Part shown: positions 8,902 to 49,989 of the stretch, piece by piece | Position numbering within the stretch: the first letter of the stretch is position 1 | How the letters are laid out: each line of letters begins with the position of its first letter | DNA from: Bacillota bacterium | GTDB lineage: Bacteria > Bacillota > Limnochordia > DTU087 | DNA: 56,494 nt | NCBI GenBank assembly: GCA_012798695.1 | Contig: JAAZMR010000055.1 | Location: forward strand, 1 to 56,494 | Direction: 5' to 3' | Translations under genes and position numbers: made by a program | The notes under the pieces: generated by a model | The model's database searches: none | Told to the model about the DNA's origin: nothing | What the model saw: only the letters and a program-made list of their open reading frames with translations

Positions 8902-10149
8902 TCAACCGGTTACTCCATACTGCCAACGTGCCTGTACCTGGTGGCCATCCCATTCTTCCAGAGAGAATATCCTGTCCAATGCCAAGGCATAAGCGCCCAT
9001 CAAGGGAGCGCTCCCCCGCATGTCAGAAATCTGGATACTTATATTTCCTCCGATTTCCTCTAGAGTACGGGCTTCCACCTCACTTCTCACTGCCTGCAGC
9101 AAAGGCTCGCCTAATGTCGATAGCTCTCCACCTAAGATAACCATCTCTGGATTGAGCAGGCTGACCAAGTTGGCCACCATTACTCCAATAAAGCACCCTG
9201 TTTCTTGAATGAGTGCTCGAACCTCGGGAGAGTCAGCCAGTGGCGAGGAGCGCAGATCAGCTAGAGTCAGCTTTTCCTTGGTAATGCCATGCTCTAGAAA
9301 AACCTCGTCAGGAATGACCGCTCTGGCTCTTTGTATGACCGCCCTTGCGCCGCAAACTGCCTCAAAGCAGCCCTGGCGACCGCAAGCACAGCGCGGACCA
9401 TTTTCCGCGAGCAAGATCATATGCCCTAGTTCACCGGCATACCCCCGGACACCACCATAAATCTCTCCATCAGCTACAATCCCGGCTCCAATACCGACTG
9501 ATAGATTGACGAAAACCAGGTGTTTGTGTCCATGACCTAAACCATACTCTTTTTCCGCCAAAGCAGCAGCATTGGAAATATTCTCCACCTGCACGGGTAT
9601 ACCACCGAGACGTTTTGAGATCAAGGCACTAAGCGGTACTCTCACCCAGCCCAAATTAGAAGATCTTTGCACAACACCTCTATGTGAGGAGACCAGACCC
9701 GGACAGGCCACTCCACACCACAGGATGTTATCAAGATCAATCTGAGTCTCTTGAACAAGGTCCTCGAAATCTGCGCCGATCGCTTCCACCACTTGATCGG
9801 GATCATCAGTATCTAACTGGCAGTAGCGCTCTGCCAAGATGTTTTTGGCCAGATCGAAGATCGCCGTCATCAGCTCTCCCCGCTGAAGGCGTATAACAAA
9901 CACGTGAGCAGCCCTGGGATTTAGCTCCAGCAGAATGGGCCTTCGCCCCCCACTGGACGCGCCATGGCCAACTTCCTTAATCACCCCAGCCTGCAGCAGC
10001 TCTGCCACGATTACTGTTACCGTGGAGGGCGTGAGGCCCGTCTCTCTAGCAATCTCATAACGAGCAATTGGCCCTAGTTTCCTGATCATATCTCGGACCA
10101 GCAAGCGATTAAGTACCTTCAAATCCCTACTATTACTACCTATCCACAT
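8902..10149 (-). CDS. ROK-family transcriptional regulator (NagC/XylR type)
   Basis: A 415-residue repressor-like protein. An N-terminal winged helix-turn-helix (about residues 18-75, with SRDLKVLNRLLVRDM and TPSTVTVIV) precedes a ROK sugar-kinase fold. The fold carries the GAGIVADGEIYGG nucleotide-loop region and an intact zinc motif (GELGH, CACGRQGCFE). Such proteins bind a sugar or sugar phosphate and release DNA. It lies immediately downstream of, and in the same direction as, the amino-sugar operon but behind a strong terminator. It is the obvious candidate for that operon's regulator. The ATG at 10149 was chosen over a GTG at 10170 because AAGGGA lies 10 bases before it and nothing suitable precedes the GTG. 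Confidence 0.9.
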   Translation of the reverse strand: MWIGSNSRDLKVLNRLLVRDMIRKLGPIARYEIARETGLTPSTVTVIVAELLQAGVIKEVGHGASSGGRRPILLELNPRAAHVFVIRLQRGELMTAIFDLAKNILAERYCQLDTDDPDQVVEAIGADFEDLVQETQIDLDNILWCGVACPGLVSSHRGVVQRSSNLGWVRVPLSALISKRLGGIPVQVENISNAAALAEKEYGLGHGHKHLVFVNLSVGIGAGIVADGEIYGGVRGYAGELGHMILLAENGPRCACGRQGCFEAVCGARAVIQRARAVIPDEVFLEHGITKEKLTLADLRSSPLADSPEVRALIQETGCFIGVMVANLVSLLNPEMVILGGELSTLGEPLLQAVRSEVEARTLEEIGGNISIQISDMRGSAPLMGAYALALDRIFSLEEWDGHQVQARWQYGVTG

Positions 10150-10249
10150 TACTATACATTCCCTTAACACTTTATTGCCTAAAACTAATCGACCTACCTT
10201 CTACTTCCATCTAAGAAGCAAAGAACCTGCTCGCGTACCCTTCTAGTAC

Positions 10250-10325: not shown

Positions 10326-11090
10326 CTAACGTAGGTGCTTTACTCGAGGAAAGTACCTTTCTTCATACTCCTTGTTTAACCTATCACCTTCCGGTAAGTT
10401 GGCACTAGTCCAAACCGGCGGCTGAATACCTCGCTCAACAAGCTTCTCTGCAGTCCGGATCATCAAGAGGTTAATAGCAAAGGCATTGCAGTACGTGGAG
10501 GTTGGGCCCATTTTCTGCGCAAGACCCTCCACTTCCACCACCGCATCACCTAAAGGCAAGTAATTGTCAATGAATACATCTACCAGCTCATGGAGGTTCT
10601 TCCCACTAGGATGTCTGGAAGGAGCATCCTTAGGTACTTGCCGAGCAAAGCCGGTAGAGGTAATGCCGATCGAAGCTACACCTCGTTCTTTACAGTATAA
10701 GGCACAATCTATAGTCATAGAGTTAATGCCATAGGCATTGACTATGACCAAGACATCTCCCTCAGTCACCCCATATGATACCAAGACCGCCTCGGCATAG
10801 CCGGGACTGCGCTCAATATAGTTCGAGCGCTTAGCTCCAAACATCAAGATCGTCCCAGGGTCTAGAATGGGGTTGACGGGTGCCAAGCCTCCTGCCCGCC
10901 AGAGGACTTCCTCAGCGGCCAGGTTGGAATGCCCCCCGGGGCCAATGACATTGATTAACTTGTCTTCTGCGACAGCATTGGCGAGTATGGTGGCAGCTTT
11001 GTCAATTGATTCCTGCTGTTCTTCCTCAATTCTCTTCAGTACTGATACGATTGTTTCCACATAAGACCTGCTAGTCCTCGACAAGAACAT
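10326..11090 (-). CDS. SIS-domain phosphosugar-binding protein, UPF0309-like
   Basis: A 254-residue cytoplasmic SIS-domain protein resembling the UPF0309 family. Diagnostic stretches are GPGGHSNLAAEEVLWRAGG and LAPVNPILDPG, then a YAEAVL segment. The phosphosugar loop, usually SNSGRN in this family, reads VNAYGIN here, so the usual Ser/Arg contacts are missing. The ATG at 11090 follows GAGAGGAG. It is the last gene of the amino-sugar operon, after NagB. Binding or isomerising an amino-sugar phosphate from the same pathway is likely, but the reaction is not established for the family. Confidence 0.82.
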   Translation of the reverse strand: MFLSRTSRSYVETIVSVLKRIEEEQQESIDKAATILANAVAEDKLINVIGPGGHSNLAAEEVLWRAGGLAPVNPILDPGTILMFGAKRSNYIERSPGYAEAVLVSYGVTEGDVLVIVNAYGINSMTIDCALYCKERGVASIGITSTGFARQVPKDAPSRHPSGKNLHELVDVFIDNYLPLGDAVVEVEGLAQKMGPTSTYCNAFAINLLMIRTAEKLVERGIQPPVWTSANLPEGDRLNKEYEERYFPRVKHLR

Positions 11091-11165
11091 ATCTCCTCTC
11101 AATAACGCCAATAACTAGAGACTTCTTGATCCCATACCTTACTATTCACTATTTCTAACCGGAAC

Positions 11166-11936
11166 TTACAACAACCCTGCTGAATCTCTATCCAAATACA
11201 GTATGGAAGCACTGTGTTGGCGAAGAACCGTCGCTGGGCAATGAGTTCCGATCTCCCCCTCAATAGTTTCCTTTACTGCTTCAGTCTTCGTCTTGCCGGG
11301 AACCATACAGTAAATGAATTGAGCGGACATCACCGCCGGAATCGTCAGGGTAAGTGCCTGCTTCGGCACCTGATCTATTGAAGCAAAACAGCCATCATTA
11401 ACTTGCTGCCTGCGGCATTTCTCGTCCAACCAGACAGTTTTCACCAGGCAAGGATCGGCGAAATCCGCCACTGGTGGGTCATTAAAGGCAATGTGACCAT
11501 TTTCACCAATACCAATAAATGCTATGTCGAGGGGATACTGGCGTAAGAGATCAGCATATCGCTGAGCTTCCCTCTCAGGCGAACCTGTATCACCCCGTAG
11601 ATAGTGGACTTCCTTAAAATCGACCTTGCCAAAGATGTGCTCATCCAAGAACACGGCAAATCTCTGGGGAGCATCACTAGGCAAGCCTAGGTATTCATCT
11701 AGATGAAAAGCTCTTACCCTCTTCCAATCAATATCATCCTCATTGATCAAGGCCTCGAGAAACTCATTCTGTGAAGGAGCTGCAGCAAAAGCCACATTGA
11801 TGCACTCCCTCTCCCTCAGCAAATCACGCATTTTCTGAGCAGCACACGCAGCAGCTGCTCGCCCCATACAGGGCCGATCACGGTAAATTTCCACCATCAG
11901 GCTATCCTTTTTAAACGATCGTTCTGAGCTAGACAT
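11166..11936 (-). CDS. glucosamine-6-phosphate deaminase-like protein (NagB family, variant active site)
   Basis: A 256-residue cytosolic protein of the NagB/6-phosphogluconolactonase fold. NagB converts glucosamine-6-phosphate to fructose-6-phosphate and ammonia. The catalytic-base region FHLDEYLGL (D80) is conserved. The second active-site block reads GIGENGHIAFNDPP: His148 is kept, but the Asp expected two residues before it is Asn146 and the following Glu is Asp153. This is a distinct subgroup from E. coli NagB, so activity or substrate may differ. It follows nagA by 15 bases and has AAAGGGG before the ATG. Function as amino-sugar deaminase/isomerase is the best guess from context. Confidence 0.85.
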   Translation of the reverse strand: MSSSERSFKKDSLMVEIYRDRPCMGRAAAACAAQKMRDLLRERECINVAFAAAPSQNEFLEALINEDDIDWKRVRAFHLDEYLGLPSDAPQRFAVFLDEHIFGKVDFKEVHYLRGDTGSPEREAQRYADLLRQYPLDIAFIGIGENGHIAFNDPPVADFADPCLVKTVWLDEKCRRQQVNDGCFASIDQVPKQALTLTIPAVMSAQFIYCMVPGKTKTEAVKETIEGEIGTHCPATVLRQHSASILYLDRDSAGLL

Positions 11937-11951
11937 GACAGATCCCCTTTC

Positions 11952-13172
11952 TTAAGATGAATAAACGCTTCTCCCGCCAACGATTGTACTAACTACGGAA
12001 AAGTCATCACGCAAAATGGTGATATCAGCGTATTTCCCTTGATCAAGACTACCCATCACATTATCCACATGCAGAATCCGTGCTGGAGTAATGGTCGCCA
12101 TCTTGACTGCTGCCTGTATGGGAACTTCCGCTAGCTCCACCATAGTCTTAATCAACTGATTGCCCCGCACTACACTGCCTGCGAAGGCAGACTTGTCTGC
12201 TAGCCAAGCCACTCCTTCCTCCACCAGAATTTCTTGGCCATCTTCTCCACTGCCCAAAAAGTATCTGCCTTCCGGCATACCCGCAGCCCGCAGCGCATCG
12301 GAGCATAGGGCCATCCTTTCGGCACCTTTGCATTTGTAAATCAGTTTGAGCAAGGATGCAGGCAGATGCTTGCCATCAGCGATCACCTCCACTGTAACAT
12401 CATCTAGAAGTAGTCCAGATTCGATGGCCCCTGCCACCCTATAGCAGTTGAACCTTCTCACCCCGGCCATGCCAGAGTACAGATGAGTCATGTGCGAATA
12501 TCCAGCCTCTACCGCAGCTATGACCTCATCATGAGTGGCATCTGTATGGCCAATCGCCGCTAGAACCCCCCGCTTTCTCAGCTCTCTGCCCAGCTCCAGA
12601 GCACCGGGAAGCTCCGGTGCCGCCGAAATCCGCTTAATGAATGGATAATCGTTAAGTAGTGCCAAATACTCATCGGGTTCCGGATTCTTGATATAGCGAG
12701 GGTCTTGGGCTCCCCGTTGTGCGTGGGCAAAATATGGGCCTTCCAGGTGCACTCCCAAAAGGCGGGCACCCTTGGCCCTCTCTGTGCTCACCAATTTGCA
12801 TGCATCGAGGGCCAGGCGCAGCTCCCTTAATGAACTAGTCAATGTCGTCGGCAGGATCGCCGTAGTCCCGCCTTCGGCATGGATACGAGCAATAGTTCTA
12901 ATCGCTGCGGCGCTCCCATCCATCACATCCGCGCCCCCACCACCATGTAGGTGCATATCGATCAGTCCCGGCATGATCCATGCTCCCCGTACATCGATTA
13001 CCTTGGCTCCTTCTGGAATGTGTCCATCGGCCATGGCAAAGACCCTCTGGATGTACTCACCTTTAACATGGACTCCTCCAGGTGCAATCATGCGGTAAGG
13101 GGTGATGACTTGACCATTGACCAGGTAAAACTCTGTTTCAGTGTCCCGTTTTTGTGTGCTGCACTTCACCAT
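11952..13172 (-). CDS. nagA: N-acetylglucosamine-6-phosphate deacetylase
   Basis: A 406-residue amidohydrolase that removes acetate from N-acetylglucosamine-6-phosphate in the cytosol. Seen motifs are DMHLHGGGG (metal site H74, H76), HLEGPYF (metal Glu), GHTDATHDE and THLYSGM (metal and substrate His), and CSDALRAAG (catalytic Asp). The start is the ATG at 13172, seven bases after GGAGGTG; an ATG 15 bases further upstream overlaps that site. It lies between the ceramidase-like and NagB-like genes in the amino-sugar operon. The GHTDATHD and CSDALRA blocks differ slightly from E. coli NagA, so a related N-acetylated sugar phosphate is possible. Confidence 0.92.
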   Translation of the reverse strand: MVKCSTQKRDTETEFYLVNGQVITPYRMIAPGGVHVKGEYIQRVFAMADGHIPEGAKVIDVRGAWIMPGLIDMHLHGGGGADVMDGSAAAIRTIARIHAEGGTTAILPTTLTSSLRELRLALDACKLVSTERAKGARLLGVHLEGPYFAHAQRGAQDPRYIKNPEPDEYLALLNDYPFIKRISAAPELPGALELGRELRKRGVLAAIGHTDATHDEVIAAVEAGYSHMTHLYSGMAGVRRFNCYRVAGAIESGLLLDDVTVEVIADGKHLPASLLKLIYKCKGAERMALCSDALRAAGMPEGRYFLGSGEDGQEILVEEGVAWLADKSAFAGSVVRGNQLIKTMVELAEVPIQAAVKMATITPARILHVDNVMGSLDQGKYADITILRDDFSVVSTIVGGRSVYSS

Positions 13173-13190
13173 AGTTCTCACCTCCATCTT

Positions 13191-14489
13191 CTAGGCAAAT
13201 GCTTTGACCAACTCTGCTGCTCCTTGGACTAGAGCTTCCCCCATCTTCTCATTGAAAATCGATGTTTCTACCTCATAGCCCCCTTGTGCAAATGCATCTT
13301 GATTTGGCAAGTAACCCCAAGCACCGTTTGCATAGCCAACCAGAAATATTCTATAGTCCCCCCGACTTTGCCGGATGGCGAGGCCAAGCTCGACGAACAG
13401 CTCCCCAGGGATAGCTACCAAAATGGCTGAGCCAATTTGCAGAGCTTGCAGCGGCATGACCACTTGCTGCTGTCCCTTGATCTCGTGGTGCAGCATCGAG
13501 TCCCTTAGACATTCCAAGTAGATCTTGCTGACCTCTATTTTGCCTAGCTCTTCCCAGGCATCCATCGCCTGCAGCTTGTCCATGGCCTGAGTCTTCTGAG
13601 CAATTTGCTGCCCTAATCCGGCAACACTAGGCAGATTTTTGAGCGGCAGAGCCACACCCAGCTCCCGGGCTTCAATACCAGCATTATCTACCCAGTCGGC
13701 AGCATCTAGACCATCTAATACCGCAGTACCCAGCCTTTGTCCGACTTCAGCGGCTTTCTCAAAAGTGCGAAAGTCAAATACCTCACCTAAGGCGCTGGCA
13801 TCAGCTGAATATCCAATATTAATATTGCCTGCGGCTCCATTCAGGAATAGGGTGTGGCACAAAGGATGCTTTGCTTGGATCGTACGCCTCAGATACCCTG
13901 GATAGTCAGCAGTATACTGCCGGTTTTCTGCACCGAGTACCGTCGCATGTAGGGGGAAATTGACCAAACACCCAGCCAATCTGTTCCCAAAGTAAAACCC
14001 AATGAAATTGAGCTCGGGATCAGGACTGGGCTCTAGACTGCGGCGATTCTTGCCTATGTCAGGGACTTTGACTGAACCGACCTTGATTCTTACCGGATGA
14101 AGCCCATCTAGAGCTTCCAAAACCGTCATCACAGTTATCTCGGCGATCCGGTCAACTATCGCCGCATTCCCAGTCTCTCCAAATCCACTAGATACCAGTG
14201 GGCCCGAGTGAGTGTGAGTTGCCCCGACGAGGATAGCCTCTGACGGTATATCGGTTTTGGTACCCACTGCCTCACGGATTTTGCTAGCTAGATCATCGGG
14301 GATCTCAACCAGGTCCATGCTGATGATCGCCACCCATTTGGACCCTGCCCTGAGTACCATGGCATGGGTATACAGATCATCGTGAATGCCGATCGCACCC
14401 CCTTCTCTGGCGGCATAGCCGGCCATTGTGACACCCAAGGATGGTGTGATTTTTCGTGCTGCAAAGCCTGCGCATAATGAGTCAAACAT
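13191..14489 (-). CDS. neutral ceramidase-like hydrolase (PF04734-type), cytosolic
   Basis: A 432-residue protein matching the N-terminal domain of neutral/alkaline ceramidases. It has the ITPSLGVTMAGYA opening, the HTHSGP zinc motif (H92, H94), a second zinc histidine in FPLHAT (H181), and NGAAGNIN (217-224). In true ceramidases the last block contains the nucleophilic Ser (GDVSPN); no Ser is present here. No signal peptide or C-terminal domain is seen, so it should be cytosolic and probably not a ceramidase. It starts 50 bases after the transglutaminase-like gene with GGGAGG upstream. An amidase role on an N-acylated amino sugar is plausible from its position just upstream of nagA. Confidence 0.82.
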   Translation of the reverse strand: MFDSLCAGFAARKITPSLGVTMAGYAAREGGAIGIHDDLYTHAMVLRAGSKWVAIISMDLVEIPDDLASKIREAVGTKTDIPSEAILVGATHTHSGPLVSSGFGETGNAAIVDRIAEITVMTVLEALDGLHPVRIKVGSVKVPDIGKNRRSLEPSPDPELNFIGFYFGNRLAGCLVNFPLHATVLGAENRQYTADYPGYLRRTIQAKHPLCHTLFLNGAAGNINIGYSADASALGEVFDFRTFEKAAEVGQRLGTAVLDGLDAADWVDNAGIEARELGVALPLKNLPSVAGLGQQIAQKTQAMDKLQAMDAWEELGKIEVSKIYLECLRDSMLHHEIKGQQQVVMPLQALQIGSAILVAIPGELFVELGLAIRQSRGDYRIFLVGYANGAWGYLPNQDAFAQGGYEVETSIFNEKMGEALVQGAAELVKAFA

Positions 14490-14538
14490 TCTGAGTGCCT
14501 CCCTTGATCATCCTGTCCTGTTTGCTCTCATGTTTAGC

Positions 14539-16140
14539 CTAGAACACCTGTATCTGCCTTAGCCACATGAGATTGGGATGTAAAGCATGTCCACCATCTA
14601 CAGATTGAACAACTCGGATCTTAGTTATGGACTTGGTCGAGAATTCATGGACATTCCATGCCTGTTCCGGGTTTGCATCCACTGCCGCCACTCTTTCCCA
14701 CCGGTTATCGATTAATACCTCAATCCGGTACTTTTGCGAAGTGCGGAAAACGCCTAAGCGATCAGCCCAATGAATAACTACACTCGAGACATCTATCGGC
14801 TCTTCCCACTCCACCTGCACCCAGTGTTCAGTAGGCAGATCATCTGAGGCCCACGCAGTATGCAGCCGGCCGTCATTCAGCACTGAAGTGGTCTGCTTAT
14901 AAGGTTTGGCCACATGGACCGGCCCCATGAGATGGCGCCGCCACATCATGTCTTCCCCATACCACCAGAGAATGGGTGGTGTACTATCATCGATCAAGTG
15001 AGCTATTCTAATTGGTCCTTCGGCATCAGAAAGGAAATTGTTGCGCATCAAAAACGAAAGGTGTCCATAGAAACTCAAACGCTTGGCTAAGGTCTGACTG
15101 CCCATTTCTGCTGCAGTATGCGGCCCAGCGCACATTTGGATCTCTGACGCCTTGCCTGCCTTGAGCAAATTGTGGACGTCCAGGGCACTGAGTACCACAC
15201 CACCGTGCACATAATGACAATCATAATCAACATCAAACAAGACCCATTGGCCGAGGTCATTAGACCAGATCTCAGTCACTACATGTTCATCACAGGGAGG
15301 TTGGTGCTCCTGTTCCTGCCCCGGCTGACAATCCTCGGCGATTCCCCGGTGCAAGTTAATCATCCTGACCATATAACCCAAACTCAGACAGCATTGAACG
15401 AAGCTCACACTGTAATGCACACAATGAAAGCGTTCAAGCCCTTTCCTGCCTCGCTCGATGATGAACCGAGCATCCCAAGGAGGCAGACACAAGGGCTGGC
15501 CGTGAATCCACAAGCCCTTTAGCCATGTCCGCAAAGGAATTAGCCGTTCCCAATCAGCACCCACAGCAGCGAGCTTTTCATCCAGCCGATAAGCCTCCCG
15601 CAGTGAAACAAGTTCTGGATGAAGATAGTCTTCGTAAATGAACTGGTGTGGGCTGACCACCGGCCTTCCACCATTGATTGCTGCTGTCATTGCATTGGAG
15701 CTTGGATCGTAATCCACAAGCACCTCGGTTGCTCTGCCTATTACCCCGGCAGTATTGCGGCTGTGAAAACAGAACCGGTTTTGACCGGGACGTAAAGGCA
15801 CGCTCCATATGGAGGGAACCGGCTGCCATTCACCTTTGTCTATTTGAGCAAATACACCTGCTAAGTTAGGCGTGTTAGTGCTTATATAGAACACCACATA
15901 GGCGGGGCTCGAGCCGAGTTCCGCCCGCACAGCCACTTCATTTAATGTCCAATAAAGATTGTCTGATCTCGTGTTGGTGGTAGAATAGAAGCTATCCACC
16001 GACACAACCGCTCCCGCATCGATATGACTCAACTCGGTTCTACCAAGGAGATTACCGAATTCTCTTCCAGGCTGAAAATGATGGGCAACTTCCCCTTGCC
16101 ACGCTCTCAGCCGCAACTGTGCATTAGATAATTTCTCCAT
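14539..16140 (-). CDS. transglutaminase-like protein with C-terminal F5/8 type C (discoidin) domain
   Basis: A 533-residue protein without signal peptide. The N-terminal 150 residues look like beta-sandwich material. The middle carries a transglutaminase/papain-like core with a triad that aligns as C240 (HCVHYS), H286 (DEHVVTE) and D303 (LFDVDYD). Residues about 395-533 form a discoidin-type jelly roll (LHTAWASDD...VQVEW...IRVVQS), usually a sugar-binding module. AGGAGGG precedes the ATG by six bases. It sits between permease and ceramidase-like genes of the amino-sugar operon. Cleaving a peptide from an imported glycopeptide is a reasonable guess; the substrate is unproven. Confidence 0.82.
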   Translation of the reverse strand: MEKLSNAQLRLRAWQGEVAHHFQPGREFGNLLGRTELSHIDAGAVVSVDSFYSTTNTRSDNLYWTLNEVAVRAELGSSPAYVVFYISTNTPNLAGVFAQIDKGEWQPVPSIWSVPLRPGQNRFCFHSRNTAGVIGRATEVLVDYDPSSNAMTAAINGGRPVVSPHQFIYEDYLHPELVSLREAYRLDEKLAAVGADWERLIPLRTWLKGLWIHGQPLCLPPWDARFIIERGRKGLERFHCVHYSVSFVQCCLSLGYMVRMINLHRGIAEDCQPGQEQEHQPPCDEHVVTEIWSNDLGQWVLFDVDYDCHYVHGGVVLSALDVHNLLKAGKASEIQMCAGPHTAAEMGSQTLAKRLSFYGHLSFLMRNNFLSDAEGPIRIAHLIDDSTPPILWWYGEDMMWRRHLMGPVHVAKPYKQTTSVLNDGRLHTAWASDDLPTEHWVQVEWEEPIDVSSVVIHWADRLGVFRTSQKYRIEVLIDNRWERVAAVDANPEQAWNVHEFSTKSITKIRVVQSVDGGHALHPNLMWLRQIQVF

Positions 16141-16153
16141 GACTGCCCTCCTC

Positions 16154-17029
16154 TTACCCTTTGATGCCCCCTGATGCCAAGCCCCGAATGAAGTACTTTT
16201 GCCCCAGCAAGAAGATTAACAGGGTGGGAATCACACCCAGTATGGCACCAGCAGCTGATTCCCGCCATCCACCATAAAAGGCTGAGTCTAAAGTCGTCAG
16301 GCCTAGTGGCAAAGTGTAAGAATCGGGACTCTTCAATAAGACGACAGGCCACAGCAATGCATTCCACTGCTCCACGAAGGTGAAGACCGCTATGGTAGCC
16401 ACCGCGGGTTTAGCTAGGGGAAGCATGATCTTCCAATAAGTGCCGAATTCAGAACAACCATCGATCCGGGCGGCATCTTCAAACTCTCCCGGCATAGTAA
16501 TAAAGGACTGCCTCATGATAAATATGCTGAAGGGAGTAACAATCAGGGGCAGTACCAAAGCCCAGAGATTGTCCAAGAGGCCCAGATTGCGAAAAACACC
16601 AAAGAGCGGGATCAAAGTAACTTGCTGTGGGATCATCATGGCAGCTAGAACAATCATGAACAACGCATCGCGTAGAGGGAAGTTCTTGCGCGCAAATCCA
16701 TAGCCCGCCATCGGGACCAGAATCACCTGCAGCAAGACTGTCATACCTGATACCCACGAGCTATTCCAAACATAGCGCCAAAAGGGAAAGACCCGCAACA
16801 CCTCGGGAAATATCTCAAAGTTCGCTGGCCGAGGAATGATTACCGGTGGAAAAGCAAACAAATTCGCCGTCGGTGGCTGCAGGGCAATGGAGATCAGGAT
16901 AATGAAAGGCCCGAAAAACAGCAGCCCCCCGATTATAAGTCCCAACCAAATACCAACTGAACCTAACTGTGCTGAACGCTGCATCGATTTTTTAGTAGCA
17001 ACTGCGGTTTCCACAAAATACCCCCCCAT
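16154..17029 (-). CDS. carbohydrate ABC transporter permease, MalG family
   Basis: A 291-residue inner-membrane permease with six hydrophobic segments and the EAA loop (DAARIDGCSEFG...LPLAKPA) near residue 200. It pairs with the MalF-type permease 12 bases upstream to form the amino-sugar importer. An ATG at 17029 is listed. A GTG at 17014, preceded at six bases by GGGGGG, has the better ribosome binding site and may be the real start. No ATPase gene accompanies it, so a shared sugar-import ATPase is expected. Confidence 0.92.
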   Translation of the reverse strand: MGGYFVETAVATKKSMQRSAQLGSVGIWLGLIIGGLLFFGPFIILISIALQPPTANLFAFPPVIIPRPANFEIFPEVLRVFPFWRYVWNSSWVSGMTVLLQVILVPMAGYGFARKNFPLRDALFMIVLAAMMIPQQVTLIPLFGVFRNLGLLDNLWALVLPLIVTPFSIFIMRQSFITMPGEFEDAARIDGCSEFGTYWKIMLPLAKPAVATIAVFTFVEQWNALLWPVVLLKSPDSYTLPLGLTTLDSAFYGGWRESAAGAILGVIPTLLIFLLGQKYFIRGLASGGIKG

Positions 17030-17041
17030 AACAGCCAAAAC

Positions 17042-17968
17042 TCAATAGGTCGTATACTGTTTTTCCATATGCCGCATGTATGCAAAGCTAAACACAAACA
17101 GCATTGCAAAAAGAACGACACCCATAGCCGAGGCATAGCCCATCTTCAAGAAGATAAAAGCTTGCCGGTAGATATAATAGACGATTACGTTCGTACTATC
17201 TGCCGGCCCCCCACCGGTCATCACGTATACTTCACCGAAGACCTTCAAAGCTCCAATAGCCGCCATGATTACGACCAGCACAATAGCAGGTTTCAGGAGG
17301 GGGAGAGTAACATGCCAAAATCGCTCAAATACATTCGCCCCATCGACCGTCGCCGCTTCGTCAAGTTCAACCGGGATCCCCTGTAACCCACCAAGATACA
17401 GCATCATGTAGTACCCCGATGCCTTCCAAATAGTCACGAAGATAATCGATAAAAGGGCTACCTTAGGATCACTCAAGAAACCGATAGGTTGTTTACACAG
17501 CCCCGTCCACTGCAGGAAGCCGTTGATGAAGCCCTGTTGAGAATAGAGTATTTTCCACATGATGCCGGCAATAGGCATGGCCGTGATTACCGGAAGATAG
17601 ATAACAGAGCGAAAAAAGGCAATCCCCCGCAAAGTGCGGTTGACAAGCAAAGCCAATAATAACGGGAAAACGATACATGCCGGCACAACCACCGCTGTGT
17701 AGATGAGGGTATTTTTCAGAGCTATATGGAAGATCGGGTCATAGAATAGCTCACGAAAATTATCCAAACCGATAAACACCGGTGGTTTGACGATATTGTA
17801 CTCTGTCAAGCTCAGCCAAAAACTCGCTAAGAGTGGGTAGAACATGAAGATACCCAATAGGATAATGGCGGGAAGCACGAACATAAATCCTGATAGATCA
17901 TGTTGGCGACAGAGACGCTTCAGGCGCAATGAGAGCGAAGGATGGGCAGTCGAATTCTGCACAGTCAT
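17042..17968 (-). CDS. carbohydrate ABC transporter permease, MalF family
   Basis: A 308-residue CUT1 permease with a hydrophilic N-terminus, six membrane segments and the EAA loop (DEAATVDGANVFERFW...LPLLKPA) near residue 210. The ATG at 17968 was chosen because AAAGGAGG lies just upstream; the frame is open further but without a better site. It follows the binding protein gene by about 85 bases and precedes the MalG partner. Together they probably import an N-acetylated amino-sugar oligomer, judged from the nagA/nagB-like genes downstream. Confidence 0.93.
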   Translation of the reverse strand: MTVQNSTAHPSLSLRLKRLCRQHDLSGFMFVLPAIILLGIFMFYPLLASFWLSLTEYNIVKPPVFIGLDNFRELFYDPIFHIALKNTLIYTAVVVPACIVFPLLLALLVNRTLRGIAFFRSVIYLPVITAMPIAGIMWKILYSQQGFINGFLQWTGLCKQPIGFLSDPKVALLSIIFVTIWKASGYYMMLYLGGLQGIPVELDEAATVDGANVFERFWHVTLPLLKPAIVLVVIMAAIGALKVFGEVYVMTGGGPADSTNVIVYYIYRQAFIFLKMGYASAMGVVLFAMLFVFSFAYMRHMEKQYTTY

Positions 17969-18053
17969 CCTGCCTCCTTTCCAATGGCTAGCTTGGCTGG
18001 AGGCACCAGGCCCCCAGCCAAGCAACGGATTCAAAAGTTGCTGCTATTGCTTG

Positions 18054-19352
18054 CTATTGCTTGCTAAGCAGGCGATTCCAAACCCGCTCAGCATTAGCTA
18101 GTGCTTGTTCAGGACTGATCTGACCGGTATACATTCTCTGTGTCTCTCTAGCAAAGGCTTCAGCTAACTCCGGCCATATCGTGCTAGGTGGAATGGCGGT
18201 CGGACTGACAACTGAACCACCGGGCCAACTCACCTGCAGCATCCTTGACTTATCTCTTAGAGTCTCGGGATTCTCAACATCGAAATAAGGGTCTTCCAGA
18301 ACCTCAGGCCGACTCGGGAAAATGGCCACTTGCTTGATAAACTCAAGCTGCAGTTCTTTACTCGTCACATAGAGGGCGAAGTCTACTGCTTCCTGGGGAT
18401 GTTTGCTTTGGCTCGAGACTACTAGATACTGGAAGTGAGTCAAAGCTTTCCCCGTTTTGCCGGTGATCGGATAGGCGATATCGGTTTCTAGAGCCTCAAG
18501 CACCTCTGGGGTAGTGCGATTCAGTACTTGGGGACCGACCAGGGTAAAGGCACCGCGGCCACCAATGTACCACTGTTGGGCTTCAGACCACACAGCCGTT
18601 AGTGCTTCCTGGGGTAGATAACCATCTCGGTACAGATCACGCCACTTCGTCAGCACTTCCACTGCTTCCGGGGTATTGAAGGCTGCTTTCTTGCCATCAG
18701 GTGTAAACAGGTTAACACCTTCTTGCAGCAACCAGTCTATTTCTTGGCCACCATCGACCTTGTTATTGGACTGGCCGATTACCGTCATCAACCCAAACTT
18801 GCCGGTAGCATCTTTGATCTTGCGGCTCATCTCCATAGCTTCATCATACGTCTTGGGAGGACAATCGGGGTCTAGTCCAGCTTCTTTGAAGATTTTTCGG
18901 GAATATACCAAAGGTGAGGCACCTTCACCATACCAGGGCAAGCCCAAGGTCTTGCCATTGAAGGTCAGAGCATCCATCAGGCCTTGATCATAAGCGGCCC
19001 TCTCTTCTGGGGCGAGATACTGGTTAACATCCACCAGAACATCCAATTCCACTAGTTTGGCCAAACCATAGATATTGCCAACATCTGGTGCTATACCAGC
19101 ACTGACTGCCGCCAGGTATTTCTGAGCCACATCAGCCCCTGGTACGTCCACCCAGTTAATTTTCACACCGGGATGGGCGTTCTCATAATCTGCAATAAAG
19201 CCACGAATCCAGTCCCCGAAAGGACCTGCAAGACTGATCGTCCAGAATTCGAGGGTAATATCCTCGGCAGCAAGAACGGAAACACTAGGTAAGAGCATGA
19301 CGACAATCAATGTGATTAACAACGAAACTCGAACTTTAGCCATCTTAGACAT
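18054..19352 (-). CDS. extracellular sugar-binding protein of the amino-sugar importer (family 1)
   Basis: A 432-residue family 1 binding protein. The signal peptide (about 1-29, ending SVLAA) has a signal-peptidase-I site and no lipobox Cys. The mature region starts ITLEFWT and contains VNWVDVPG-like and GGRGAFTLVGP stretches of the UgpB/MalE group. AAAGGAGAA precedes the ATG. It is the first gene of the eight-gene amino-sugar operon. The downstream nagA and nagB-like genes suggest a GlcNAc-containing ligand, which the sequence alone does not prove. Confidence 0.93.
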   Translation of the reverse strand: MSKMAKVRVSLLITLIVVMLLPSVSVLAAEDITLEFWTISLAGPFGDWIRGFIADYENAHPGVKINWVDVPGADVAQKYLAAVSAGIAPDVGNIYGLAKLVELDVLVDVNQYLAPEERAAYDQGLMDALTFNGKTLGLPWYGEGASPLVYSRKIFKEAGLDPDCPPKTYDEAMEMSRKIKDATGKFGLMTVIGQSNNKVDGGQEIDWLLQEGVNLFTPDGKKAAFNTPEAVEVLTKWRDLYRDGYLPQEALTAVWSEAQQWYIGGRGAFTLVGPQVLNRTTPEVLEALETDIAYPITGKTGKALTHFQYLVVSSQSKHPQEAVDFALYVTSKELQLEFIKQVAIFPSRPEVLEDPYFDVENPETLRDKSRMLQVSWPGGSVVSPTAIPPSTIWPELAEAFARETQRMYTGQISPEQALANAERVWNRLLSKQ

Positions 19353-20470: not shown

Positions 20471-22837
20471 TCATTTAACCTTATCCAGGACTTTCAGCTC
20501 ATAACTATACCCAGGCGTAGTGGCAAACTGAATGACTCCTGGTGCAGAGCTGGTAAATACTTCTTTGCCATTACAGGTCACTTTCACTGGACTCGCTACC
20601 TGGATACGGCAGTCTCTACCAAGGAGTGAATAAACCATGGCTCTTTTCAGCTTTCCCCCTTCCCACTCCAGGTCAACGGTAAATCCTGCCCGAGCCCGTA
20701 GGCCCCGCACATACCCAGTTGGCCATGAGGTAGGTAGCGCGGGAAGTATCTGCAATTTTCCTGTATGACTCTGTAGGAGCATCTCAGCAATTCCAGCTGT
20801 GCAGCCAAAGTTGCCATCGATTTGGAATGGTGGATGGGCATCGAAAAGATTGGCATAGACTCCGCCGTGCTCGTAATCAGTCTCACCATCCTCAACTAAG
20901 GTTAAGAGGTTGGAGAGCAGCTTATAGGCCCGATCCCCCTCACCCAAGCGAGCCCATAGGTTGATTTTCCAAGCCAGGCTCCAGCCGGTACCACCATCGC
21001 CCCGCCTCTCGAGAGAGTGGCGAGCAGCGGCAAACAGCTCCGGTGTAGATGCCTCGGTGATCTGACGCCCCGGGTGCAATCCCAGCAAATGCGACACATG
21101 ACGGTGATGCTGATCCTCATCGACAAAATCCAAAAACCACTCTTGAAGCTGCCCATACTGCCCTACCTTTAGTGGATATAGCCGGCTCCGAGCCTTGGCC
21201 ACTTCTAGCCGGAACTCCTGATCGCATCCCAGGATCTCTGCAGCTTCAATGGAATTGGTGAAAAGATCCCAGATCAGTGACATATCCATGGTACTTGCCA
21301 GACTGACAGCGGCCTTTTGCTCATCTGTGGTAATGAACTTGTGTTCAGGGGAGGTGGAAGGAGCGGTAACCAGGTAGCCATCATGCTCAAACATCCAATC
21401 AAGGTAGAACTCCACAGCGGCTTTCATCAGTGGATATGCCCGCTTCCGGAGAAAATCTTCATCCCCACCAAAAGCATAGTGCTCCCAGAGATGTTGGCAG
21501 AGCCACGCTGCCGCCATTGGCCAAAGGCACCATACCGGATCACCCTGCCCATAATCTCCCGCGGGAGCTGACTGACGCCATAAGTCCGCATTGTGATGAG
21601 CAGTCCAGCCCCGGCAACCATAGTTGACCATAGCGGTTTTGTGGCCAGAGACAGCCAGATCCGCGATGAAATCAAACAGGGGTACATGGCATTCAGCTAG
21701 GTTGCAGGTTTCTGCTAACCAGTAATTCATCTCGGTATTGATATTTAATGTATAGTTGCTGCTCCAAGGAGGCCTCACATCGTCATTCCAAATTCCCTGC
21801 AAGTTGGCAGGCTGAGTTCCCGGCCGGGAGCTTGAGATGAGTAGGTACCGGCCATATTGAAACATGAGTTCAACCAAGTGCGGATGAGGATTTCCGCCGT
21901 TCCGAAGCATCATGTCTGTCTCTAGGTCTTCTTCGGAAGATGGGCTCAGGTGAAGCTCCACCCGATTAAACAGCCTTTGATAATCTTCTATATGCTCTTG
22001 GCGAAGCTGTGTATAGGACTTGCCCACCCCACCCGCCAAATACCTGAGCGCTACAGGTATAGGGTTTTTACCCGCCTTTCCAGGGGATTTGCTAAAACCG
22101 TCAAAGCTCGTAGCCATACTCAGCAGCAGTGTCACTTGAGTAGCCTTCTCTACTCGTAGGTTATCTACACCAGTATATATGCTGCCATCTTCTGTGATCA
22201 CTTGCAGATGACAGGCAAAAGCCATCCCTTCCTCGTCATAGATAATCGGCTGGCTGCGATCATAGTAGTTTGGATCCACGTGGCTGGGGGCTCTCCCTGT
22301 CAGAGTGAGGAGATTACCCGCAGCTTCTGTATCATGGGGCAGTTTGCTGCCCAACTTGACAGCAAAGTTAAGCATACCTGGCTGACTCACCCCGAGGCGC
22401 ATCACGATCAGCTGTTCAGGGTAGGAGGCAAAGACTTCCCGAGTGTAGATGACTTCTCCAATTGCATAGCTGACTTTGGCTATAGCCGTGGTGATGTCCA
22501 ATTCCCTTTGATAGTTCTTAGCCCAATTACCATGCTCCATGGTTATGCATAAATCCCCGAGGGGCAGATATGATTGAGTATAGGGCCCCATCATCTGCTT
22601 ACACAGCTGATCTGCTTCATTATACTTTCCCGTCAGGATCAGGTGGCGTACTTGTGGCAAGACGTTTTTCGCCCCTGGATTATCCCAATCCTTCGGCCCC
22701 CCGGACCATAGTGTATCCTCATTGAGCTGCAGTCTCTCTGTCTCCACATTGCCAAACACCATGGCACCTAACCGGCCATTGCCAATGGGCAGAGCTTCGG
22801 TCCAACGGCAGGCAGGTTGGCTGTACCATAGTCTCAT
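20471..22837 (-). CDS. glycoside hydrolase family 95 (alpha-L-fucosidase type)
   Basis: A 788-residue GH95 enzyme without signal peptide, so it acts in the cytosol on imported oligosaccharide. The N-terminal domain starts at once with [18 protein letters not shown]. The (alpha/alpha)6 barrel holds the NINTEMNYW block (two catalytic-site Asn), STSPEH (likely the acid Glu) and QIDGNFG (the Asp that supports the Asn base), as in bifidobacterial AfcA. Family members mostly cleave 1,2-alpha-L-fucosyl links, some alpha-L-galactosides. AGGAGG precedes the ATG. It lies about 180 bases after the SIS gene in the same direction. Confidence 0.93.
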
Positions 22838-42058: not shown

Positions 42059-42979
42059 TCATTCCATATACTCATCCCGATATCTTTCCGTCATTCTCCT
42101 CAGCTGCTTGACTTCAAAGCGTTCTGCTGGGGTGAATTGCGAAGCATCCTTCACCCGGGAGTTGAGGGTCATATTTAACCCCTCAAGCTGCAGATAGTAC
42201 TTGCCATTAATCGGATATAGCTGCCGTTCTATTAATGACGCTACCCCAAGAAAGTCTTGCAGCTGCTCAGCTTTCTGAGTTTCCCTTGACCACTGTCTGC
42301 TCAGCCATACATAGAGCTCTGGGTGGAAGTTGGCCATTACTCCACTATACCCGCTGACTCCTAGTTTGAGCGTCTCCAAAAGGGTGGCGGCATTCGCATT
42401 AAATATCTTAAGGTCTGTTCCTTTGACTGCCTCTACTTTTGCCCGCATGTCTTCAATATTGCAGGATGTATCTTTCAGAAATAGGACCCTTTCGGTCGAT
42501 GCACACCAGGCCAAGAGCTCTGGAGACATCAATCTCTTGTACGGGTAAGGGCATTCATAGAAACCGAAAAGGATATCTGGGAGCTCATCGAATAAGATTT
42601 CGGCATTCCTCTTCCAGACATCGTCAGACTCTTCTTCTCCTGCCAACCGATTAGTCACCAGCACTATCGCATTAACGCCGGTATCACTGATCGCCCTTAC
42701 TTCCTCTATCTGATCGGCCATATCATCCGCAATATGGCCCGCAGCTATCACAGGAACACGCCCTGCGGTTTGCTTAACTACACAGCTGGCTATGCCAACT
42801 CTTTCCTCAAGTGATAGCTGAAACATCTCACTAGATTGGCAAACAGCAAAGAGTCCATCGACCTGTCTTGCTATGTACCATTCAACTAGTTCCCTTAGTG
42901 CACCATAGTCTACTGTATTGGCATCAGTAAAAGGAGTAAGCATGGTGGGCCATACTCCATCAGGAATGCATTTGCTCAT
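42059..42979 (-). CDS. DapA/NanA-family aldolase (dihydrodipicolinate synthase family)
   Basis: A 306-residue (beta/alpha)8 class I aldolase. The Schiff-base lysine is K169 (LFLKDTS) and the helper tyrosine is Y141 (FYECPYPY). The loop that reads GTTGE in true DapA is CQSSEMFQL here, so it is probably not lysine biosynthetic. It more likely belongs to a sugar-acid or pyruvate-aldol subgroup. GAGGGGG precedes the ATG. It stands apart from the sugar operons with only the URO-D remnant downstream, so its pathway cannot be named. Confidence 0.88.
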   Translation of the reverse strand: MSKCIPDGVWPTMLTPFTDANTVDYGALRELVEWYIARQVDGLFAVCQSSEMFQLSLEERVGIASCVVKQTAGRVPVIAAGHIADDMADQIEEVRAISDTGVNAIVLVTNRLAGEEESDDVWKRNAEILFDELPDILFGFYECPYPYKRLMSPELLAWCASTERVLFLKDTSCNIEDMRAKVEAVKGTDLKIFNANAATLLETLKLGVSGYSGVMANFHPELYVWLSRQWSRETQKAEQLQDFLGVASLIERQLYPINGKYYLQLEGLNMTLNSRVKDASQFTPAERFEVKQLRRMTERYRDEYME

Positions 42980-43353: not shown

Positions 43354-44271
43354 CTATCTAGTAAGAGCATTCAAAGTACCCTGATACTGGAACCTATACC
43401 ACGCCCAAGAGCTCGGTAGTCCTAGGTTAAGACCCTGCCGCAACATGGCGATGGCTAGAAGTTTTTCGTCCAACTGCGCATAGGCCAACCCTAGTAGTCC
43501 GTAAGCAGCCGCGTCGTTGGGGTTTATCTGGGTTGCATGCAATCCGTAGCTCACGGCATCTTCGTAGTTTCCAGCCAGATAGCTAAAGTGAGCCAACCAG
43601 TAAATGGCATCCGCATTGTCGGGCATGATCGAGACTGCTGTTTCGATTTGCTGCAAGGCTCGCTCCAGATTGCCGGTAACCAGGTAGATAATGGCCAACC
43701 GAACATAGGCCGGAAGGAATTCTGGTGAGAACTGAATAGCCTTCTCGTAATGCTCGATACTGTCATTATACTTTTCCAAGTTCGCAACACTGGGGTTGTC
43801 GTATTTGCCCCACGTATAGTCCATTTCATAAGCCCGACCTAGATAATAGCGGCTCAAAGCTTCATCAGCTCCAAAAGCAATGGCGATGGCGAAGCTCTCT
43901 ATCGCGCGAGGATATATATCTCTCCGATTATTCTCATACTCTAACTCATCTGCCTTATCGAGCCGCAATATACCTAGTATGAAATGATTAGTCGGATATG
44001 TGTAATCATCCTTGGTAAGCTGCTTATACTCATCAATATAGTCATCCCTTTTCCCTGAAGCAAGATAAGCGTCGGCAAGCCTCTCAGCAATCTCCAGGTC
44101 ATACTCGGCTATTTCCAGGCCCTTCTCAAACTCGACAATTGCCCGCTGCCAGTCTCCTACCTGCATAAACTTATTTCCATTCTCTAAGAACTGGTCAGCC
44201 TGAGCCATGACCATAGTGGTGCTGGACACCAATAATGAAAAACATATGAATAACAACAGCTTCCTTCTCAC
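43354..44271 (-). CDS. secreted TPR-repeat protein
   Basis: A 305-residue protein with a signal peptide (about 1-23, ending VMA) followed by tetratricopeptide repeats over most of the chain, for example GDWQRAIVEFEKGL, YNDSIEHYEKAIQFSP, ALQQIETAVSIMP and AVSYGLHATQINP. TPR arrays act as docking scaffolds. The start is a GTG, ten bases after AAAGGAG. It is the last gene of the seven-gene operon that encodes only exported proteins. It would act in the periplasm or at the cell surface, possibly assembling the CsgG/FlgT-like partners. Confidence 0.85.
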   Translation of the reverse strand: MRRKLLLFICFSLLVSSTTMVMAQADQFLENGNKFMQVGDWQRAIVEFEKGLEIAEYDLEIAERLADAYLASGKRDDYIDEYKQLTKDDYTYPTNHFILGILRLDKADELEYENNRRDIYPRAIESFAIAIAFGADEALSRYYLGRAYEMDYTWGKYDNPSVANLEKYNDSIEHYEKAIQFSPEFLPAYVRLAIIYLVTGNLERALQQIETAVSIMPDNADAIYWLAHFSYLAGNYEDAVSYGLHATQINPNDAAAYGLLGLAYAQLDEKLLAIAMLRQGLNLGLPSSWAWYRFQYQGTLNALTR

Positions 44272-44291
44272 TGCACTGACACTCCTTTGCC

Positions 44292-46334
44292 TTATTCAAA
44301 ACACACGTCATCTGGTAAGTTGTCCATGTACTCGTTGGCTGGTTCGGTATACGGGGGCACTGCATAGCGAGGCCATGGTGTGCCTTTCATATCCACTGCC
44401 AAAGCCTCTTTGCTCACAAAAATCGCCCCTCCGCCTAGACCACCACCATGGTTAGATATAAACACATTACCCGCTATTTTCGGTGCTGACTTTTTCTCTA
44501 CATAAATTGCCCCACCACTTCTTGCTGACTTATTGCCGGCAAATTGATTGTTTATGATCGTGGGAGAAGAGTCACGAATATAGATAGCTCCCGCACTCAA
44601 GAAATAAAATTGAGAAGCTGAGTTCTCTTTGAAGTGATTCCCTTCAACCACTGGCTGGGAATCGCCCAGAATAGTGATCGCGCCCTCTTTGTTATTAACA
44701 AACACGTTGCGCCGAATGGTCGGTGATGACCTGTTGGATATGAAAACAGCCTGTCTAGCACTGTCTTTGATTGTAAACCCTTCCAAGATCGTGTCATTGT
44801 TCTCACCTTTACTGAAGTTGGCGATAGTGGGGTTAGCCGGGCCACCCGTCAATATGGTAGAACTGACTATATCTGGAGCGAGAGGATTGACGCTGCGGAT
44901 GGTAATGGATTTCCCCCTAAAATCTAGGTAATCGTAGTAAGTCCCAGGCGCAACAATAATGGTGTCCCCAGCCTTGGCTGCATCCACAGCTTGTCGAATG
45001 GCAGCATAATCTTGAGGAACCCTAATCTGCCTACCTGCACCTCGAGACCGGCTCTTGGGTGTCTGAATCGTCATCTGAGATTGCTCAAAGTCGAAGTCGG
45101 AAGTATATATGTCAGTAGATAGCAAGCTAGCTATGGTAGAATCCTTAACCAGACTCCCTATAGTGCTGCTGATTAGTAAACCTGTTTCTGTCTCGATCAA
45201 CCGCATATCTAGATCTAGCTTTGATCCCAAATCAGTGATGCTGCCAACAATAATGGCATCTACCCCGAGGATCTTCCCTACTTCTTTGATAGAATCCTCA
45301 TCGATGAGCCCCGTCTGGCTCAGTTTTAGCTCATCTATGACTTGGTCAAGCTGCTGCCTTTCCACCACTTCTATCTCAGGGTAAGCTGCCAAGGCCGTGA
45401 GCACTGCTTCCTGCAGTGTCCATGATAAGAGCGTATGGGACTGATTGGGAACTGTAAACCGGTAAACCGCAATCTTCTTTGTATCGACCAGCTGATAAAC
45501 GAGGTCCCCAACCTGGAAAGGCTCACTCACCAAGCCTCTGGGAGTGCCGATGGACATATTCTGTCTTACCCTGCTTATTTCAATCACGCCCCGATGCTGC
45601 TCCTGATGCCCAATTAGATCCCCAGTATTGGGATCATATATCGGTTCTCCAGGCCCGACGATTTCGTATCGCTCACCCACCTTCATCTGACCATAACCTT
45701 GATTGAGATACACCTCGGTGGGAGAAGCCTGCGCTACCCTCGCTGCTTTGGCTCTCAATGGTTCCAGAATACGTTTAACCAACTCTTCAGTTTCTAGGCG
45801 CAGATTGTCCGAGCTTTCATCAGCTGCCTCCGGTTCCAGGATTACCTCCAGGTGAGTCTCCTGCCCTTGAGCTATGGTCACCGGCATCTTTGCAGGCACG
45901 TATCCGGATTTGTCAATTATGACATTGTATGTACCGGTACCCATCGATTCCAGCCATAAAGGTGAGCTATAGAGGTTTTGCTCAATCAGGACAGTACATT
46001 CGGTGGGCAAGGTTGTAATATACAGGCTTCCTGACGGCTTTGCCAGTGAAACCTCTACAATTACCTGCTCACCGGGAGGTAAGAGGATCGTCTGCTCCCA
46101 TGGGAGATAACCATCACATGATACTCGAACATTGTGAGAGTCTGCCACTTCCCTAGCAATTAGTGGTGTTACACCCACGAAATCTTCACCGATGTAGACC
46201 TTTGCACCTGAGATATTCGAGAATATCGCCAGCTCTCCAAATTGGTCCGCTCTTTGCTCCTCACAGCCCATTTGACTGACACTGAGGGTGACGAGCAAGA
46301 CAATCATGAATAACTTCTTGTACACTTCCATCAT
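44292..46334 (-). CDS. exported PEGA-PEGA-FlgT_C-CsgG-beta-helix fusion protein
   Basis: A 680-residue protein combining five modules. The N-terminal signal ends in a non-ideal lipobox (QMGC, Cys24). Two PEGA domains follow (about 30-97 and 98-172; AKVYIGEDFVGVTPL). An SH3-like FlgT_C-type domain (about 200-285) shows EVYLNQGYGQMKVGERYEIV and YDPNTGDLIG. A CsgG-like domain (about 290-415) shows VVERQQLDQVIDEL and KILGVDAIIVGSI. A right-handed beta-helix (about 430-650) shows DTIIVAPGTYYDYL and NNQFAGNKSARSGGAI. PEGA modules often bind surface polymers. I know no named family with this order. The start is one of two adjacent ATGs, four bases after GGAGG. Confidence 0.85.
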   Translation of the reverse strand: MMEVYKKLFMIVLLVTLSVSQMGCEEQRADQFGELAIFSNISGAKVYIGEDFVGVTPLIAREVADSHNVRVSCDGYLPWEQTILLPPGEQVIVEVSLAKPSGSLYITTLPTECTVLIEQNLYSSPLWLESMGTGTYNVIIDKSGYVPAKMPVTIAQGQETHLEVILEPEAADESSDNLRLETEELVKRILEPLRAKAARVAQASPTEVYLNQGYGQMKVGERYEIVGPGEPIYDPNTGDLIGHQEQHRGVIEISRVRQNMSIGTPRGLVSEPFQVGDLVYQLVDTKKIAVYRFTVPNQSHTLLSWTLQEAVLTALAAYPEIEVVERQQLDQVIDELKLSQTGLIDEDSIKEVGKILGVDAIIVGSITDLGSKLDLDMRLIETETGLLISSTIGSLVKDSTIASLLSTDIYTSDFDFEQSQMTIQTPKSRSRGAGRQIRVPQDYAAIRQAVDAAKAGDTIIVAPGTYYDYLDFRGKSITIRSVNPLAPDIVSSTILTGGPANPTIANFSKGENNDTILEGFTIKDSARQAVFISNRSSPTIRRNVFVNNKEGAITILGDSQPVVEGNHFKENSASQFYFLSAGAIYIRDSSPTIINNQFAGNKSARSGGAIYVEKKSAPKIAGNVFISNHGGGLGGGAIFVSKEALAVDMKGTPWPRYAVPPYTEPANEYMDNLPDDVCFE

Positions 46335-46381
46335 ATGGCCTCCATAACTCACAGTCATACTAGTTGCAAACAGGCATCAGA

Positions 46382-47518: not shown

Positions 47519-47534
47519 TGAGCCTACCCCCCAT

Positions 47535-49695: not shown

Positions 49696-49989
49696 TTGAA
49701 CTCCTCCTTGAATTCCCAGCGCCTTTACCTGGCTATTGCTATTCCGTTTTTGCTGCCGATCTGGGTGCAAAGATCAGCTGGGTATCAGCCTCCCCTCGTT
49801 TCATCAGATGCCGGAAGTCCATGGCAGACAGCCATCAACCGACTCGTTATGTAGTTCCATAGTACTAGCTCAAAGCAAGAAGCGCCCCTTGTAGGCACAA
49901 TATACTAGATGTTCTAGGGTCTTTTCCTTGTTTCCTCCATACTGATTGCATTATTGTGTTAGATCATTGCTTGGCATTGCCCTGGTTGA

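Follow-up and report, generated by a model that had tools for sequence, protein, structure and literature searches.

Organization of the operon

The window analysed here comprises positions 1-56,494 of contig JAAZMR010000055.1 (assembly GCA_012798695.1) of a Bacillota bacterium from the Limnochordia lineage DTU087. Its minus strand carries a compact operon, running from position 19352 to 8902, that encodes in this order an ATP-binding cassette (ABC) importer (a solute-binding protein and the permeases PermA and PermB), a transglutaminase-like protein with an F5/8C domain (TGase), a ceramidase-like protein (CDase), a NagA-like deacetylase, a NagB-like deaminase, a SIS protein and a ROK-family regulator. 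The intergenic gaps measured 4-55 bp from the solute-binding protein gene through the SIS gene, and 156 bp separated SIS from ROK, which also lies 3' of SIS in the sister locus L082. An initial annotation, made from the sequence alone, had listed the importer, TGase, CDase, NagA, NagB-like and SIS genes, and this inventory was borne out together with its coordinates (Table 1). Neither a sugar kinase nor a phosphotransferase system (PTS) was found among the genes of the operon. Inspection by eye of the start regions of the TGase and the CDase revealed no signal peptide.

Loss of phosphate-binding residues from three enzymes

The main point in the data is that three enzymes of one operon, the NagA-like, NagB-like and SIS proteins, have all lost phosphate-binding residues and kept the catalytic ones. 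Open reading frames outside length limits, duplicates and nested sequences were excluded from the residue comparisons of these three families and of the CDase. The NagB-like protein scored 133 bits with TIGR00502, below the curated cut-off of 236.9, and reads AAAPSQ where TG[SG]TP is expected and G182 at R172, the loop and the arginine being what we take to be the phosphate-binding positions of E. coli NagB. Its catalytic residues were present: Asp72 (HLDEY), His143 (NGH) and an acidic residue at position 148 (FNDP, with Asp for Glu148). Both phosphate-binding features were absent from 41 of 68 homologues including the window protein (AAPSQ or STGASQ-type loops); the other 27 had the canonical loop, one of them (L187) with K at R172. 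A search of 398 genomes sampled from the phylum detected window-type NagB in 33 (E ≤ 1e-40), and it also occurs in Alphaproteobacteria and Bacteroidota plasmids.

The NagA-like protein scored 273 bits with TIGR00221, above the curated cut-off of 225.65. It lacks the N-A/G-M...HREPG block, which presumably lies near the phosphate in NagA, and reads YSGMAGVRRFNCYRVAG instead. The pattern YS[GA]M..VRR..YR, with an insertion, was shared by the window protein and 19 others (three with KR, TRR or QR), and the remaining NagA sequences compared carried LPRHPN (7) or the canonical HREPG (20). Metal and catalytic residues were retained in the NagA-like and NagB-like proteins alike.

The SIS protein matched PRK02947 (254 bits against a threshold of 135) and NagS, the N-acetylglucosamine 6-phosphate (GlcNAc-6P) dehydratase of Streptomyces (PDB 9eol, E 2.5e-37). 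It retains the NagS catalytic residues H53, R64, E94, D179 and N228; the NagS report describes the first four as essential and N228 as important, and places S54, S119 and S121 in contact with the phosphate (PMC12680351). In the window protein, S119 and S121 are replaced by N and Y, as in 11 of 53 homologues (window included). According to the same report, the S119A and S121A mutants still work, so these serines would bind rather than catalyse, and three NagS homologues that do not come from Streptomycetaceae showed negligible activity with GlcNAc-6P or none (PMC12680351).

Elsewhere in the genome, a canonical NagA-NagB pair is encoded on contig C18, and MurQ with a BadF-type kinase on C113, which makes the window NagA, NagB and SIS proteins a second, divergent set. 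Recycling of N-acetylmuramic acid (MurNAc) by the window SIS protein, also considered, is weakened by the MurQ-kinase genes. The initial annotation had suggested that the TGase strips a peptide and the CDase an N-acyl group, followed by deacetylation and deamination, a scheme in which ordinary NagA and NagB would finish GlcNAc-6P. The gene order and families match that scheme, as does the score of the NagA-like protein; however, the low-scoring NagB-like protein without its phosphate residues, the remodelled NagA-like and SIS proteins, the separate canonical pair and an operon without a sugar kinase make it improbable, and canonical GlcNAc-6P catabolism was rejected as the principal explanation. 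The operon thus keeps the enzyme families of the NagA-NagB pathway but differs from it in the replaced phosphate-site blocks, the coupling with SIS and CDase, and the missing kinase or PTS. Judged from these residues and from the canonical genes elsewhere, the substrate is likely to lack a 6-phosphate and is probably no hexosamine-6-phosphate.

Table 1 Features of the operon and its surroundings in the window
Feature	Position	Strand	Basis
ABC solute-binding protein (SBP_bac_1)	18054..19352	-	Pfam E 2e-38; operon head also in L082, L083, L084
ABC permease A (UgpA-like, CUT1)	17042..18034	-	Pfam and NCBIfam profile matches
ABC permease B (UgpE-like)	16154..17038	-	Pfam and NCBIfam profile matches
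Cys-His-Asp enzyme of transglutaminase-like type carrying an F5/8C domain at its C-terminus; accessory component, proposed to act as a cytosolic amidase	14539..16140	-	Triad and profile matches
Short neutral-ceramidase-like zinc hydrolase; Ser position is Asn224	13191..14489	-	Ceramidase_alk E 4.1e-14
NagA-like deacetylase, 'VRR' type, canonical HREPG block replaced	11952..13187	-	TIGR00221 above cut-off
NagB-like deaminase without phosphate loop and R172	11166..11936	-	TIGR00502 below cut-off
SIS protein, NagS / PRK02947 family	10326..11111	-	PRK02947, 254 against 135 bits
ROK-family (NagC-like) transcriptional regulator with helix-turn-helix, final gene of the unit	8902..10170	-	Profile matches
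GH95 fucosidase-like protein	20471..22837	-	
SIS protein, 376 aa	23017..24147	-	
DapA/NanA-like lyase	42059..42979	-	By eye
Stretch of genes for secreted or lipoprotein-like products, with domains that are repeated and related	43354..51673	-	By eye

Conservation of the module

The CDase was found in 24 of 299 genomes of the phylum and a SIS protein above the NF002805 cut-off in 49; the two occurred together in 18 (Fisher p 2.4e-11), and a comparison of coordinates by eye showed that 17 of the 24 CDase genomes have a NagS-family SIS gene no more than 5 kb from the CDase gene. The order NagB-SIS-NagA-CDase-SBP-permease-permease, checked by tblastn, was conserved in all seven alphaproteobacterial plasmids recovered in both plasmid searches (Devosia, Microvirga, Martelella, Ponticoccus and three Nitratireductor). 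Their NagB is labelled '6-phosphogluconolactonase' in six of the seven records and glucosamine-6-phosphate deaminase in that of Devosia, and window-type NagB proteins recorded under either name are probably misannotated. The TGase and the CDase are kept in the same compact operon in another genus at 69-75% identity. Linkage in relatives, which the initial annotation had proposed to check through co-occurrence, is thus conserved (TGase with CDase in 3/4 loci, CDase with SIS in 17/24 genomes, CDase with NagA, NagB and SIS in 7/7 plasmids). The placing of both enzymes in an amino-sugar operon held for their linkage but not for the TGase as a standard component, since it is missing from most CDase modules. 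The linkage is real, and the pathway probably differs from the GlcNAc-6P scheme. A literature search of partial coverage returned no account that describes these genes in combination or that links such a combination to aminouronate catabolism.

In L046, L050, L162 and L250, two small Amidohydro_2-type proteins of about 243-248 aa recur as a pair beside the SIS, NagA and NagB genes.

The ceramidase-like protein

Profile comparison of the CDase with neutral ceramidases gave E values of 4.6e-47 (2zws) and 3e-45 (4wgk), structures that we take to come from P. aeruginosa and human, respectively. The window protein keeps their zinc ligands (His, His, Glu and Tyr) and the neighbouring His and Arg, but has 432 aa against 646, and the match is limited to the N-terminal region and the Glu/Tyr block; with NF041649 it scored 37 bits, far below the cut-off of 1200. 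Ceramidase Ser274 corresponds to Asn224. Given the amino-sugar setting and the short protein, which also differs in having no signal peptide seen by eye, a role as sphingolipid ceramidase was rejected. Residues H92, H94, H181, R149, E363 and Y393 were invariant in 20 relatives, and the signature HHRHEY was present in all scored CDase rows except L161, where three positions are X.

The initial annotation had correctly placed H92, H94 and H181 and noticed the missing nucleophile Ser. Reading this absence as the mark of an odd enzyme did not hold: Asn or Arg occupies the position in 29 of 41 tree-placed CDase rows with the zinc site intact, and Ser is confined to one CDase branch. Among the 25 loci in which both proteins could be scored, a Ser-type CDase accompanied a Ser-type SIS in 11 and a non-Ser CDase an N/Y-type SIS in 14, with no exception (p 2.2e-7). 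We rejected counting these as 25 separate events, since each label changes once per tree, and the pattern therefore represents one ancient split into two modules. This split points to two kinds of module, which would handle phosphorylated sugars in one case and unphosphorylated sugars in the other, the window belonging to the latter. On the Ser-type side, mannose-type PTS genes (named by eye) occur in L047 and L164, and the candidate phosphorylated-sugar type is also found with ABC importers, GH84 and NagZ-type GH3 in L052, L054, L056 and L058. Six loci (L243, L244, L050, L064, L162 and L275) have no CDase row in the residue comparison.

Several further arrangements were seen around CDase genes. 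In L052, L054, L056, L058, L065, L170 and L171, an RpiR regulator accompanies a Ser-type CDase, a Ser-type SIS (unscored in L171) and an ABC importer, along with GH84 and/or NagZ-type GH3 and, in some, secreted GHL10; no NagA or NagB was seen nearby. This Ser-type module looks parallel to the MurNAc operon of Bacillus. In L047, L049 and L164, a CDase gene is accompanied by multiple copies of SIS and NagA. Two of these loci, L047 and L164, also have a DeoC-like aldolase besides Gfo/Idh and the mannose-type PTS, the aldolase suggesting a different end of the route there. On the haloarchaeal plasmids L243 and L244, CDase-like genes lie beside Gfo/Idh genes, with a heparinase II/III family gene in L243.

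The transglutaminase-like protein

The F5/8C domain of the TGase was significant (E 2.8e-10). Transglut_core scored 16 bits on the window protein, under the curated cut-off of 23, and was detected at E ≤ 0.05 in all 10 aligned relatives (best E 1.8e-14). The triad C240, H286 and D303, in Cys-His-Asp order, was invariant in this 10-member alignment, at the positions given by the initial annotation. A profile built from the alignment matched 6g49, a protein-glutamine gamma-glutamyltransferase that we take to be TgpA (E 4.6e-4), and the peptide N-glycanase 2f4m (E 0.012). The window protein shares the Cys-His-Asp core with these two proteins, but the similarity is weak, and it differs in its F5/8C domain, its sugar operon and the start region in which no signal peptide was seen by eye.

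The TGase is narrowly distributed. Searching 72 genomes of the class recovered it in four, namely the window genome, G310 (75%), G334 (56%) and G309 (55%), the remaining matches being F5/8C-only or generic transglutaminase-like proteins. A contig scan of 84,980 species, limited by its two patterns, returned only the same three relatives, metagenome-assembled genomes (MAGs) titled Bacillota or Firmicutes, and no TGase was found in the viral contigs or plasmids searched. The gene lies downstream of the importer in all four loci and adjoins the CDase gene in three. L082 (G310) holds the entire operon including ROK, L083 (G334) the genes from SBP through PermA, PermB and TGase to CDase before the contig ends, and L084 (G309) SBP, PermA, PermB and TGase followed by an HpcH/HpaI aldolase, one further protein and NagB. 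On these counts, the TGase was rejected as a general partner of the CDase.

A Cys-His-Asp triad enzyme would naturally target an amide bond of the imported sugar. One unlikely option is cell-wall scavenging, in which the imported compound is a fragment of wall or S-layer amidated with a peptide or an amino acid, and the TGase acts as a peptide-releasing amidase. Pseudomurein, with its N-acetyltalosaminuronic acid, and archaeal N-glycans with amidated aminouronic acid would be candidate sources. The profile matches to 6g49 and peptide N-glycanase suit this idea, and the named relatives are MAGs titled AS23ysBPME and UBA3910; MAG sets of this kind presumably derive from methanogen-rich digesters. 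The operon contains no wall hydrolase, however, and the genome has MurQ with its kinase. Scavenging of this kind could be combined with the explanation favoured below.

That the CDase and the TGase are inactive or regulatory remnants, as Asn at the former catalytic Ser position of the CDase might imply, is very improbable, since the zinc residues and the triad are invariant across relatives and families and the operon is kept in another genus.

Nature of the substrate

Hexuronate genes accompany several related modules. UxuB-UxuA lie directly behind the operon on all three Nitratireductor plasmids (the dehydrogenase is shortened in one), and L169 encodes a tagaturonate reductase (652 bits against a threshold of 359), a UxaA-like protein, KdgA and KdgK. 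Four loci have tripartite ATP-independent periplasmic (TRAP) importers: L248 (together with UxaB-UxaA), L262 (together with UxuB-UxuA), L252 and L273; L264 has a TTT-like importer (named by eye). Genes for uronate metabolism or carboxylate import were present at 8 of 40 module loci and 0 of 21 canonical NagB loci (p 0.026), and at 7 of 30 among the loci found through NagB alone (p 0.018). Genes of the N-acylglucosamine 2-epimerase family, which acts on unphosphorylated sugars, adjoin the CDase gene in several modules. The uronate enzymes and TRAP carboxylate importers suggest an N-acetyl-hexosaminuronic acid, and an amidated C6 carboxyl as the TGase target would suit such a substrate. From gene content, an aminouronate is therefore a possible substrate. 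Overall, we tentatively favour, at slightly under even odds, a role of the operon in taking up and breaking down an N-acylated amino sugar without a 6-phosphate, most likely a hexosaminuronic acid (with a C6 carboxyl) or a small glycan containing one.

Several observations weigh against this reading. The uronate enrichment is weak, and the loci behind it are not independent. The genes of the hexuronate pathway (UxuB-UxuA, UxaB-UxaA and the 2-keto-3-deoxygluconate steps) lie behind related modules, but none is present in the window operon or in L082 and L083, and no Mannitol_dh_C protein (UxuB/UxaB type) was found in the window genome. The co-split of SIS and CDase counts as a single event, the TGase of L084 has no adjoining CDase, NagA or SIS, and the AlphaFold models were poor (pLDDT 58 and, for the TGase, 48.9). 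Hexosaminidases beside some related NagB genes (L242, by annotation; L265, GH3) and a PfkB kinase with a ketose-bisphosphate aldolase in L158 suit neutral sugars.

A neutral unphosphorylated sugar is a credible though less probable substrate: a free N-acyl-hexosamine with a free C6 hydroxyl (GlcNAc, ManNAc, GalNAc or MurNAc) would be converted to fructose or tagatose and phosphorylated only afterwards. It accounts equally well for the lost phosphate residues and agrees with the hexosaminidases, the L158 genes, the absence of UxuB/UxaB from the window genome and the Ser-type SIS-CDase pairs found with NagZ-type GH3 and/or GH84 in L052, L054, L056, L058, L065 and L170. It leaves unexplained, however, the UxuB-UxuA, UxaB-UxaA and TRAP/TTT genes near related modules.

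Proposed pathway

Under the aminouronate reading, the ABC importer would bring the sugar in unphosphorylated. The TGase, in this lineage only, might first cleave an amide in the cytosol, for example one that joins an amino acid or an amine to the C6 carboxyl, with its F5/8C domain perhaps holding the glycan. The conserved pair of NagS-like SIS protein and zinc-dependent CDase-like amidase could handle the open-chain N-acyl form, through C2/C3 chemistry and N-acyl hydrolysis; the individual roles given here to the TGase, the CDase and the SIS protein are only weakly indicated. The NagA-like enzyme would take off the N-acetyl group, the NagB-like enzyme would release ammonia to leave a ketose or keto-uronate, and control of the operon probably lies with the ROK protein.

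More speculatively, and in our estimate doubtful, the modules may represent a widespread N-acetyl-hexosaminuronic acid pathway new to the literature. Import and 2-epimerisation would be followed by N-deacylation by CDase-like and NagA-like enzymes, a NagS-like step and phosphate-independent NagB, giving fructuronate or tagaturonate for the hexuronate route, and the cytosolic TGase-like amidase would admit amidated forms (archaeal walls, glycans) in this lineage. If the substrate is an aminouronate, the return of aminouronates from capsules, O-antigens, S-layers and archaeal walls to central metabolism becomes testable. Short ceramidase-like proteins also gain a concrete context from the module, as do the NagS-like SIS proteins of organisms other than Streptomyces, for which the NagS report left the substrate open (PMC12680351).

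Neighbouring genes in the window

The GH95 fucosidase-like gene and the gene for the 376-aa SIS protein lie upstream of the operon and probably outside it, because they are missing at the equivalent place in L082. The DapA/NanA-like lyase gene stands apart from the other amino-sugar genes, and the stretch of secreted or lipoprotein-like genes lies at higher coordinates.

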